Shown here piece by piece: positions 27,425-31,511 of a stretch of 33,055 nucleotides of DNA; position 1 is the first letter of the stretch, and every line of letters begins with the position of its first letter. Where the stretch lies: the IMG/VR virus record IMGVR_UViG_3300027708_000207, positions 1 through 33,055 of that record. One strand, written 5' to 3'. The notes under the pieces were generated by a model. That model did not search any database and was not told the origin of the DNA. It worked only from the letters and a program-made list of their open reading frames with translations. The position numbers and the translations under genes are program-made. The stretch is from a virus.

Positions 27425-27742
27425 ATGATTACACATAATAATATAAAAATAAAACAAGAAAGTTGGTTAACTTCTACATGGAGACCAGCTATGGCATGGA
27501 TGTATATGGCAATTTGTATTTGTGACTTTATGGTATTTCCTGTTGCTTGGGCGGTATTCCAAGCTTATGTTGATGTTAAACCAATTTCACCATGGAATCC
27601 ATTAACGTTACAAGGCGCTGGATTATTCCATATGGCAATGGGTGCAGTGTTAGGTATTACTGCTTGGAGTAGAGGGCAAGAAAAAATGCTAGGTATAACA
27701 AGTATGGATATCCAAACTCCACCAGAGGAACAAGAAAAATAA
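27425..27742 (+). CDS. Holin (marine T4-like type)
   Basis: 105 aa. Two membrane segments are visible: residues about 22-48 (AWMYMAICICDFMVFPVAWA) and about 64-81 (GAGLFHMAMGAVLGITAW). Between them lies PWNPLTLQGAGLFHMAMG, a signature of a small holin family in marine T4-like phages. The start has WRPAMAW and the tail is short and charged. Such holins permeabilise the inner membrane to time lysis. A good ribosome binding site (AAGGAA, 27413-27418) precedes the start. No endolysin gene is adjacent, so the partner lies outside the window unless an unrecognised protein does this job. It sits between gp54 and gp16 among assembly genes. Confidence 0.8.
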   Translation: MITHNNIKIKQESWLTSTWRPAMAWMYMAICICDFMVFPVAWAVFQAYVDVKPISPWNPLTLQGAGLFHMAMGAVLGITAWSRGQEKMLGITSMDIQTPPEEQEK

Positions 27743-28182: not shown

Positions 28183-28899
28183 ATGGCATTACCAATTAAT
28201 AGTAGCACCCCAGTCTATACATTAACTATTCCTTCAACTGAGAAGACTATTAAATATAGACCATTCTTAATTAAAGAAGAAAAAGCTCTTTTGATTGCAC
28301 AGCAATCTGAAGATCCAATTGTAATGGTTAATTCTTTAAAAGAAGTAATTAAGGCATGTATTAAAGATGATGTTAATGTAGATTCATTAGCAACATTTGA
28401 CTTAGAGTATATTTTTACTCAATTAAGAGCAAAATCTGTTGGCGAAGTTATTGAATTGCAATTAAAATGTGATACATGTACAGATGAAAAAGCAGTAGCT
28501 CCAATTAGAATTGATTTGACTACTATTAAAGTAGAAAAGAATCCAGAACATAAAAATAAAATTGAATTATTTGATGATGTTGGTATTGCATTAAAATATC
28601 CAACTATTGATGTTATTAAGAAATTAGAATCTGTAGATAATAATAATGTTGATCAAGTGTTTGCTATTATGGTTGAATGTATTGATTACATCTATAATTC
28701 TACAGAAGTATTTGCAGCAAAAGACCAAACTAAACAAGAACTATTAGACTTTTTGAATAACTTATCATCACAGCAATTTCTAACAGTACAGAAATTCTTT
28801 GAAACAATTCCTAAGTTAACTCATACGGTATCTTATAAATGTCCAGTATGTAGTAAGGAACATAATAAGATCCTTGAGGGCCTAAACAGTTTTTTTTAA
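28183..28899 (+). CDS. gp26: Baseplate hub assembly protein gp26
   Basis: 238 aa against 208 in T4. Matches the T4-like gp26 family: TIKYRPFLIKEEKALLIAQQ, VIKACIKDDVNVDSLATFDL, EYIFTQLRAKSVGEVIELQL and DDVGIALKYPTIDVI. Two CxxC pairs (C96/C99 in KCDTC and C220/C223 in KCPVC) probably bind zinc. In T4, gp26 takes part in hub assembly together with gp27, gp28, gp29 and gp51. The last sense codons are AGT TTT TTT followed by TAA, giving an in-phase T-TTT-TTT slippery heptamer. A -1 slip would join this protein to 59 further residues encoded up to 29075, giving a 297-aa product. The gene lies just upstream of the tape measure. Confidence 0.88.
   Translation: MALPINSSTPVYTLTIPSTEKTIKYRPFLIKEEKALLIAQQSEDPIVMVNSLKEVIKACIKDDVNVDSLATFDLEYIFTQLRAKSVGEVIELQLKCDTCTDEKAVAPIRIDLTTIKVEKNPEHKNKIELFDDVGIALKYPTIDVIKKLESVDNNNVDQVFAIMVECIDYIYNSTEVFAAKDQTKQELLDFLNNLSSQQFLTVQKFFETIPKLTHTVSYKCPVCSKEHNKILEGLNSFF
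28890..28896 (+). promoter_or_regulatory. Candidate -1 programmed frameshift site (T TTT TTT)
   Basis: Eight T residues cover 28890-28897. In the gp26 frame the codons are AGT TTT TTT TAA, so 28890-28896 is an X-XXY-YYZ heptamer in correct phase with the stop codon immediately after. Slipping back one base lets translation continue as Leu-Ile-Asn-Leu-Ser-His to the stop at 29073-29075. I saw no strong downstream stem or pseudoknot (only A/T-rich short inverted repeats), so any stimulator is unknown. Confidence 0.6.
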
Positions 28900-28937
28900 T
28901 TAATCTCTCACATGAAAGCTTATATAATTTCTATAAA

Positions 28938-29075
28938 ATGAACTTTGCTCTAATGCAATATCATAAATATTCATTGAGCGAATTAGAAAATATGATACCA
29001 TTTGAGAGAGAAGTTTATGTTGCGATGTTAGTACAATATTTAGAAGAAGAAAAACAACGTCAGGAAAAACAATAA
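28938..29075 (+). CDS. Short -1 frame ORF between gp26 and tape measure (gp51 position), probably a frameshift extension
   Basis: From ATG 28938 the ORF encodes 45 aa (MNFALMQYHKYSLSELENMI, PFEREVYVAMLVQYLEEEKQ, then RQEKQ). The same frame is open back to 28878, so the conserved-looking sequence continues upstream as LINLSHESLYNFYK with no ATG, GTG or TTG start. No Shine-Dalgarno lies before ATG 28938. Short proteins of this type (NFALM, HKYSLSELENM, PFERE) are encoded between gp26 and the tape measure in T4-like marine phages, the place of gene 51 in T4. It is therefore more likely translated as a -1 extension of gp26 (residues 239-297 of the fusion) than as a free protein. Independent initiation at 28938 remains possible. 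Confidence 0.6.
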   Translation: MNFALMQYHKYSLSELENMIPFEREVYVAMLVQYLEEEKQRQEKQ

Positions 29076-29081
29076 GGCATC

Positions 29082-31511
29082 ATGGCTAAAAAAGAAGAAA
29101 AATTAAACTTTAATGATCTTGTCAAGGGGTTAGAGAATTCTAACCTCAAGATGTCTGCTGCAATTGAAGAGCAAATTAGAGTACAACTAGACTCGCAAAA
29201 GTCTGCTCAGCAAACAGAAACAATTGTTGAAGCTTCTGCTAAGGACACTGCATCTATCAAGCAAAAAGAAGATGCTATGCTTAAAGTTCTTAAAGCTGGC
29301 TTGATTGATAAAAGTGGCGATGGTCTTAATAGTAATGTGCTTAAGCTTATTAAAGAAATTGCTATCCTACGTACTTCATTTACCAATCCTAAAGCAACTA
29401 AAAAAGAAGATCTAACAGAACAAGATGTTGCTAATGCTGAAGTGCAAAAGCAGCAACTAGAACTTCTTACTAAAATAGAAGAAAATACTAAAGGCAAGAA
29501 AGAAGAAGGCGGAGCAGCTCCTGCAGCAGGTGGCGGCGGTCTTTTTGATGGTATTGGTAAAGGTATTAAAAAGCTTGGTTCTGGAATGAGTGGAATTGCT
29601 AAGAATTTATTAGCATTTGCCGCGGCATTATTCATTACTGCAAAAGCATTACAAGAATTTGCAACCGTAGAATGGACTTCAATCGCAAAGGGTGCAGTAG
29701 CTATTACTGGTTTAGCTTTAGCTGCTAAATTGGCAGGAACCGGAGATGCTTATAAATCAATTCTTGCTTTAGGAGTAGGTGTATTAGCATTAGGATTTGG
29801 ATTACAACAGTTTGCAAAAGTATCATTTGGTGAAGTTGTTTATGGCGCTGCATCTATTTTAATATTTGCAAAGGCTGTTCAAATTGCTGGAACAGGAGAT
29901 GCATCTAAATCTATATTAGCACTAGGTGCTGGTGTAATTATGTTAGCTGCAGGCCTACAATTATTTTCTAAAGTATCATTTGGTGATATTATTTATGGTA
30001 CTGTAGCTATGTTTGCATTAGCTAAAGCTGCACAAGTAGCTGGATCTGGTGACGCATGGAAATCAATCCTTGCATTAGGTGCAGGGGTAACTCTATTGGC
30101 AATTGGATTAAAACAATTTGCAACAGTGTCATTTGGAGATATTATTTATGGCACTGTAGCTATGTTTGCATTAGCTAAAGCCGCTGAGGCAATTAGTAAA
30201 TCTAAAGATGGTATTGTAGCAATGCTAGCATTAGGTGCAGCATTATGGGTTACTTCAAAAGCATTCCAAAATTTCGCTAAATTAGATTGGAGCGGAATTA
30301 TGAAAGGCGTAGTTGGTCTAGGTGCTTTAGCTGCAGCAGCAATTGGTATTGGTGCTCTTGGTGGAGAAATAGCAGTTGGTGCTATAGCTCTGTTAGCATT
30401 AGGTGCAGCTACTTGGATGATAGCTAAAGCTTTCCAAAATTTTGCTAAAGTCTCATGGGGAGATATTCTTAAGGGTATTGTAGCAATTGGTGCATTCACT
30501 GTTGCAGTAATGGCTCTAGGTGCTGCTATGATGACAGGTGTTGGCGCATTACTATTAGGTGCCGGTGTTGTAGCTCTATTAGCATTAAGTGTAGCAATTG
30601 GTGCATTTGGTGCTGCAGCAATGCTAGCTGGTGCCGGCATGAAAGAATTCACTGAAGGTATAGAAAGACTTGCAGCAATTAGTGGTGAAGAACTGCTTAA
30701 GGTAGCTGCTGGTATTGTAGCAATTGGTGCTGCTTTGGCAGTATTTGGTGCAGCATCAATGGTATCTGCATTAGAAAATCTAGTAACTAATTTCTTATCA
30801 ATTGGACAAGATAGTCCTGTAGAACAACTTGAAAAAATTGGTGCAGCTGGCCCCGGTATTGAAAAGGCTGCTACTGGTATGGAAAAATTAGCAGCAGCTA
30901 TGAAAGCTTTTGCTGGAATTGATAATAAGAATCTTGCTGGTATTGTAGATACATTAGATGACTTCCCATGGTTAAAAGCAGCAATCTTTGCAAAAGCTGG
31001 CGGTAGTTTATCAACAGATGGTAAGAAAATATCAGTAGGTACTGCACCCGCAGCAACAGAATCTGCTCCTTCTACTAGTGGTAATGCCCCAGTTGCAAGT
31101 AAAGCACCATTAGCTAATGGATCTATAGTACAAAAACAAGATCAAATCTTAGTAGCCGGCAAACCAGTTATTAAAGGTAAACCATTAGATAAAGATCAAG
31201 TAGTTGCTACAGACATGGCTATAGCTTCAGGCAATAAACCTGATCCTTTAGTTCAAGAATCATATGATCTTGCTAAGAAACAAGTAACTCCAGGTCAAGT
31301 AACACCTCCTGCTTCAAAGGCTAATGGAGTATACGGACAATCAGCACAAAATGCTGCAGCAGCTAATAAGCCAGCCGCACCTGCTAGTTCTCCAGTTGTT
31401 GTTAGTGCTCCTACAACTATTAATAAAACGAATCAACAAGGTTTCTTTAAAACAGCAATTAGAAATGCTGAAACCACGGTCAATCAATTCTATAAGTCAA
31501 GATTTGTATAA
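29082..31511 (+). CDS. gp29: Tail tape-measure protein (gp29 position) with 51-residue repeats
   Basis: 809 aa against 590 for T4 gp29. Residues 1-140 are charged and helical. A Gly-rich hinge (about 142-175) leads into a hydrophobic region. Residues 193-453 comprise five repeat units of 51, 51, 51, 52 and 56 residues, each beginning F-(A/S)-x-(V/L)-x-(F/W), for example FAKVSFGEVVYG and FSKVSFGDIIYG, and a sixth related unit starts at 454. Residues about 660-770 are Pro/Ala-rich, and the C-terminus is AETTVNQFYKSRFV. Length, hydrophobic repeats and position after gp26 fit the tape measure that fixes tail length. The gp29 symbol is by position and type, not by close similarity. AAGG before ATCATG is the ribosome binding site. 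A terminator hairpin follows the stop. Confidence 0.75.
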   Translation: MAKKEEKLNFNDLVKGLENSNLKMSAAIEEQIRVQLDSQKSAQQTETIVEASAKDTASIKQKEDAMLKVLKAGLIDKSGDGLNSNVLKLIKEIAILRTSFTNPKATKKEDLTEQDVANAEVQKQQLELLTKIEENTKGKKEEGGAAPAAGGGGLFDGIGKGIKKLGSGMSGIAKNLLAFAAALFITAKALQEFATVEWTSIAKGAVAITGLALAAKLAGTGDAYKSILALGVGVLALGFGLQQFAKVSFGEVVYGAASILIFAKAVQIAGTGDASKSILALGAGVIMLAAGLQLFSKVSFGDIIYGTVAMFALAKAAQVAGSGDAWKSILALGAGVTLLAIGLKQFATVSFGDIIYGTVAMFALAKAAEAISKSKDGIVAMLALGAALWVTSKAFQNFAKLDWSGIMKGVVGLGALAAAAIGIGALGGEIAVGAIALLALGAATWMIAKAFQNFAKVSWGDILKGIVAIGAFTVAVMALGAAMMTGVGALLLGAGVVALLALSVAIGAFGAAAMLAGAGMKEFTEGIERLAAISGEELLKVAAGIVAIGAALAVFGAASMVSALENLVTNFLSIGQDSPVEQLEKIGAAGPGIEKAATGMEKLAAAMKAFAGIDNKNLAGIVDTLDDFPWLKAAIFAKAGGSLSTDGKKISVGTAPAATESAPSTSGNAPVASKAPLANGSIVQKQDQILVAGKPVIKGKPLDKDQVVATDMAIASGNKPDPLVQESYDLAKKQVTPGQVTPPASKANGVYGQSAQNAAAANKPAAPASSPVVVSAPTTINKTNQQGFFKTAIRNAETTVNQFYKSRFV
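29658..30440 (+). repeat. Tandem 153-bp-type repeats in the tape-measure gene
   Basis: Five in-frame units encode residues 193-453. The first three are exactly 51 codons (153 bases), and the fourth and fifth are 52 and 56. The third and fourth are very close at the DNA level: about 45 bases from GATATTATTTATGG (29985 and 30138, spacing 153) differ at only a couple of positions. This indicates recent duplication, while the outer units have diverged. Confidence 0.85.

Follow-up and report, generated by a model that had tools for sequence, protein, structure and literature searches.

Conserved slippery heptamer at the end of gp26 and a predicted frameshift route to short and long tail assembly chaperones in T4-like viruses

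Phage lambda makes two tail assembly chaperones, the short, major gpG and the long, minor gpGT, by a -1 slip close to the end of the gene for the short form, which immediately precedes the tape measure gene. The lambda slip heptamer is G_GGA_AAG. For the T4-like phages, Vladimirov, Gautam and Davidson (2022, Virology 566:9-15) are said to have found frameshifting apparently conserved in several groups, with T4 itself relying on genes 26 and 51. In passages that cite this work, the PRFect paper (PMC10274946) refers to T4-like phages in which short and fused long chaperone genes replace the frameshift, and the Adele paper (PMC12846349) refers to poly-T slip sites in T4-like TAC-N genes. The chaperones of the Vandenendeviridae and Andersonviridae (PMC12846349) also have a -1 frameshift at a poly-T stretch near the TAC-N end, upstream of the tape measure gene, although they belong to other virus families and carry a GTTTTT motif, whereas the locus described here has T_TTT_TTY.

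Frameshifted tail chaperones of T4-like phages are already known in kind, and the present locus adds one. The chaperones treated by Vladimirov et al. 2022 reportedly have the same gp26-type short and gp51-type long forms with a frameshift in several groups; compared with them, the present virus is uncultivated, and the invariant T_TTT_TTY together with a Shine-Dalgarno (SD)-like element at 10 nt was measured in this work. Possibly new are the strictness with which T_TTT_TTY is kept in a wide clade of uncultivated viruses, and the SD-like element. A literature search, to which the full text of Vladimirov et al. 2022 was external, found no paper describing a gp26/gp51 frameshift in cyanophages.

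Anatomy of the gp26 locus and its T4 counterparts

The DNA analysed here (the window, 33,055 nt) is a 33-kb fragment of an uncultivated T4-like virus from IMG/VR, and its T4-like gene content includes gp32, the DNA end protector, head closure, tail tube, small terminase and baseplate genes. All features given below lie on the + strand. A gp26-type protein of 238 aa, which would be the short, TAC-N like product, is encoded at 28183-28899 and matches PF12322 (T4_baseplate, 7e-63) and phrog_150 (positions 5-232 of 282, 5e-68). The gene ends in AAC AGT TTT TTT TAA. Its T8 run (28890-28897) is the longest T run of the whole window, and the heptamer T_TTT_TTT (28890-28896) holds the X_XXY_YYZ phase in the gp26 frame and adjoins the zero-frame stop TAA (28897-28899). 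No other in-phase T_TTT_TT occurs among the 10,515 codons in the larger ORFs of the window.

The open stretch of the -1 frame lies between a TGA at 28875-28877 and a TAA at 29073-29075. Its pre-slip part (28878-28895) consists of six codons without a start codon, and no ATG, GTG or TTG is found in this frame from 28878 until the ATG at 28938-28940, which would yield only 45 aa, has no SD and encodes a Met that is not conserved. The post-slip part (28896-29075), which begins LINLSHES and shows a -1 codon-position pattern, appears to be a gp51 C-terminal, TAC-C like segment; it matches phrog_634 (1e-25) and the tail of phrog_150 (4e-8), with identities that reach about 67% in a set of 789 phage records. 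A slip at the heptamer is predicted to give the junction peptide NSFFLIN and a long product of 297 aa. The tape measure protein gene (29082-31511, 809 aa, phrog_4372, 6.8e-15) starts directly 3' of the -1 stop. The initial annotation, which had been made from the letters alone, read the gp26 end and the phase of its heptamer correctly to the base; the open -1 frame from 28878 to 29075 without a start at its natural beginning was confirmed, the segment that it had called conserved-looking is indeed conserved, both product lengths and the junction peptide were rightly predicted, and the gene that follows is the tape measure gene, as it had proposed.

Two further features were observed nearby. 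The tape measure gene contains 2.5 tandem copies of a 153-bp (51-aa) unit at 29799-30181, and changes in copy number would be expected to alter tail length. A holin-like ORF (27425-27742; GTA_holin_3TM, 2.6e-7; phrog_3427) lies between the tail tube and small terminase genes.

We compared the two predicted products with T4 gp26 and gp51 by profile alignment. T4 gp26 consists of the PF12322 domain only, while T4 gp51 consists of a PF12322 domain (residues 1-201) followed by a C-terminal segment homologous to the window's extension. The profile of the predicted fusion (13-284) aligned end to end with T4 gp51 (7-246) at 1.2e-16, and the extension alone aligned with T4 gp51 194-246 at 6.6e-9 (hhalign). 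In the same kind of profile comparison the extension alone gave no alignment with T4 gp26, and the window's gp26 alone aligned with T4 gp26. Because T4 gp51 is a gp26-like domain joined to a segment of the extension type, its counterpart is the predicted 297-aa frameshift product, and that of T4 gp26 is the 238-aa product. The claim of the initial annotation that gp26 and the ORF in the gp51 position form a chaperone pair is supported by these alignments. While T4 gp26 and gp51 are homologous to the window's short and long forms, they are encoded by two separate, divergently oriented genes rather than one locus, and T4 needs no frameshift because genes 26 and 51 are encoded separately.

Conservation of the heptamer and the -1 phase in relatives

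The extension lies in the -1 phase in all 158 loci having both parts (the window's own locus and its IMG/VR relatives). Because the gp26-end heptamer is the sole in-phase T_TTT_TT in the window and 158/158 relatives have a -1 extension, the T_TTT_TTT with its -1 extension is not a chance occurrence. Dereplication at 85% gp26 identity, with isolates included, left 90 loci, in 88 of which the Phe-Phe end was automatically readable. These 88 loci carry T_TTT_TTT (66 loci) or T_TTT_TTC (22 loci); in the remaining two loci the heptamer is T_TTT_TTC (Mosig) and T_TTT_TTG (Rhizobium phage I1_9). Bases 1-6 of the heptamer are T in 88/88 loci with no change on the tree, and position 7 (Z) changes between T and C 11 times. 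The stop codon adjoins the Phe-Phe pair in 70/88 relatives and comes one codon later in 18/88. Among named isolates, T_TTT_TTC or T_TTT_TTT was found in S-RSM4, P-SSM2, P-HM2, S-N03, ACG-2014a, Mosig, Melnitz, Vibrio nt-1 and K575, Aeromonas phiAS5, Xanthomonas X1 and Desulfovibrio 7757.

The invariance was compared with what the codon usage of each genome would predict. The first Phe codon is TTT in 88/88 loci, compared with 58.8 expected, and the preceding codon ends in T in 88/88, compared with 49.5 expected, with seven different codons (AGT, GAT, AAT, TCT, GCT, GGT and ACT) in use. The second Phe codon, which ends on the free Z position, is TTT in 66 loci and is near the background of 58.8. 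On the tree, the third base of the first Phe codon changed 0 times, compared with 10-30 times at seven other conserved Phe codons of gp26. This is the pattern expected of tandem slippage, and we know of no other explanation for it.

Of the loci seen, only that of isolate S-SCSM1 (L176, MK867354.2, around record position 162284) has its extension in the +1 frame. Its heptamer is intact, and the frame is owed to a net insertion just 3' of the heptamer. Because the insertion is absent from its relatives S-B05 and S9220M01, both of which are canonical, S-SCSM1 probably carries a sequence error or a newly arisen mutation.

An apparent homologue of the -1 extension was also seen at the gp26 end in Ackermannviridae and in a Vibrio phage. 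Other possible slip motifs, namely C_GTT_TTT, G_ATT_TTC and A_CTT_TTC, were noted in L171, L173 and L167 (Vibrio VAP7, Salmonella Det7 and Vibrio D494).

Putative stimulators and alternative readings of the locus

The -1 sites of E. coli dnaX and of the IS911 type combine a slippery A heptamer with an internal upstream SD at about 10 nt. The dnaX internal SD stimulator is described in PMC5600365. The window shares with the dnaX-type site a slippery heptamer and an SD-like GAGG (28876-28879, within GAGGG 28876-28880) with a 10-nt spacer, a spacing that is common to most dereplicated loci; it differs in having a U heptamer rather than an A heptamer, and in that folding found no downstream stem-loop. 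In the relatives, GAGG and GGAGG at this place are strongly over-represented by codon choice: where the site encodes Glu-Gly, Glu is GAG in 50/66 relatives, compared with 17% in other Glu-Gly contexts of the same loci, and GGAGG occurs in 35/66, compared with 0.4% expected. The p-values of this enrichment ignore phylogeny, so the differences are to be read as large effects and not as exact odds. GAGG is present in 58/88 loci and missing in about a third. Its presence showed no clear association with T or C at heptamer position 7 (p 0.12), and a weak association (p 0.01), confounded by phylogeny, with a stop that comes one codon later. A role of the GAGG as a frameshift stimulator is putative.

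A downstream RNA structure was considered as stimulator and rejected, since folding of the window and 87 relatives, with a consensus fold of 49, gave no conserved hairpin or pseudoknot. The consensus fold had an RNAalifold energy of -1.15 kcal/mol with no covariation. Downstream folding was weak, with a z of -1.2 in the window and a weak average z of about -1 just downstream. It is about an even chance that, in this large clade, the invariant U_UUU_UUY at the stop codon and the internal SD 10 nt upstream form a two-part frameshift signal that needs no conserved RNA structure, in which the SD is gained and lost between lineages and adjusts how much short chaperone is made relative to the long one.

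The extension could instead be a separate small protein, as in the annotation of gp51, translated by re-initiation or coupling from its own -1-frame start such as the ATG at 28938. That ATG exists, and the annotated records that were inspected do list a separate gp51 or hypothetical CDS. However, 80/87 dereplicated loci have no -1-frame start codon upstream of the slip, in only 3/87 does any -1-frame start come with an SD-like site, these being weak cases, relatives often have Thr or Leu in place of the Met at 28938, and conservation of the protein begins ahead of that residue. This reading also leaves the invariant heptamer unexplained, and we consider it very improbable.

Still less probable is transcriptional slippage, in which RNA polymerase would slip on the T8 run and edited mRNAs would encode the fusion. 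The run is T8 in 63/88 loci, in principle long enough for this, but 22/88 loci have only six T's before the C of T_TTT_TTC, which is too short for the usual slippage. The T6-C variants keep the exact codon phase and the tandem-slip rule, which argues against polymerase slippage, and there would be no reason to expect an SD-like element at 10 nt unless it is the ribosome that slips.

Homopolymers are error-prone, but the view that the T run reflects faulty sequencing or assembly, or that a single-ORF gene has lately acquired a frameshift mutation, is refuted by the identical T8 in a separate contig from a different metagenome (L002, 99.93% identical over 4,314 nt) and by the same -1 step needed in 158/158 relatives, and has next to no chance of being right. 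The developments that the initial annotation had named as speaking against a frameshift were not encountered: the T run is not lost in relatives, with heptamer bases 1-6 invariant in 88 loci, a separate start with a ribosome binding site is confined to the three weak cases, and the T8 is no assembly error. The comparison that it had proposed, on whether the heptamer, the -1 phase and the absence of a start are conserved, came out on its side, with respective counts of 88/88, 158/158 and 80/87.

Predicted expression and annotation of the chaperone pair

Taken together, the sequence comparisons make it very probable that one locus in this virus, of the cyanophage/pelagiphage kind of T4-like viruses, yields a short and a long tail assembly chaperone by a -1 ribosomal slip. 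We infer the slip itself, its rate, the part of the stimulator and the functions of the proteins as follows. Most ribosomes would stop at the gp26 TAA and release the 238-aa short chaperone. Some would pause with the Phe codons in the P and A sites on U_UUU_UUU beside the stop, where the GAGG 10 nt upstream would pair with 16S rRNA and probably aid the slip. After slipping back by one base, these ribosomes would read on through LINLSHES to give the 297-aa protein, the T4 gp51 equivalent. By analogy with lambda gpG/gpGT, the shared N-domain may form a coat on the tape measure protein, and the minor form may use its C-extension to recruit the tail tube or the baseplate hub. The likeness to lambda is one of arrangement, not of sequence comparison, and the predicted slip site in the window adjoins the stop codon.

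An AF2 model of gp26 had a pLDDT of 85. In a Foldseek search of the PDB with this model, 2OB9 (the HK97 tail assembly chaperone) was the only listed entry with a probability above 0.1, and it was a weak match (chains B/A, probability 0.60/0.38, E 1.7/3.1, about 60 columns). Foldseek gave no PDB match for the extension, and sequence searches gave no convincing homologue of solved structure.

In the public cyanophage, pelagiphage and vibriophage records that were inspected, gp26 and a short "gp51 baseplate hub assembly catalyst" or hypothetical CDS are annotated as separate genes, and no annotated record that was inspected joins gp26 and gp51 in one CDS. The starts given for the short cyanophage gp51 CDS differ between records (L162, L174, L175, L181 and others). 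It has been reported that cyanophage gp51 is only about 20% as long as other gp51 proteins and is without the first approximately 200 residues (Sullivan et al. 2010, PMC3037559). The short gp51 CDS in the cyanophage records appear to be the frameshift extension listed as a gene of its own, and the predicted frameshift would explain their shortness, with the absent approximately 200 residues being gp26 itself. The conserved signal permits correct annotation of this locus in many genomes, and the U heptamer with its SD is a simple, testable cassette from an abundant aquatic virus group.
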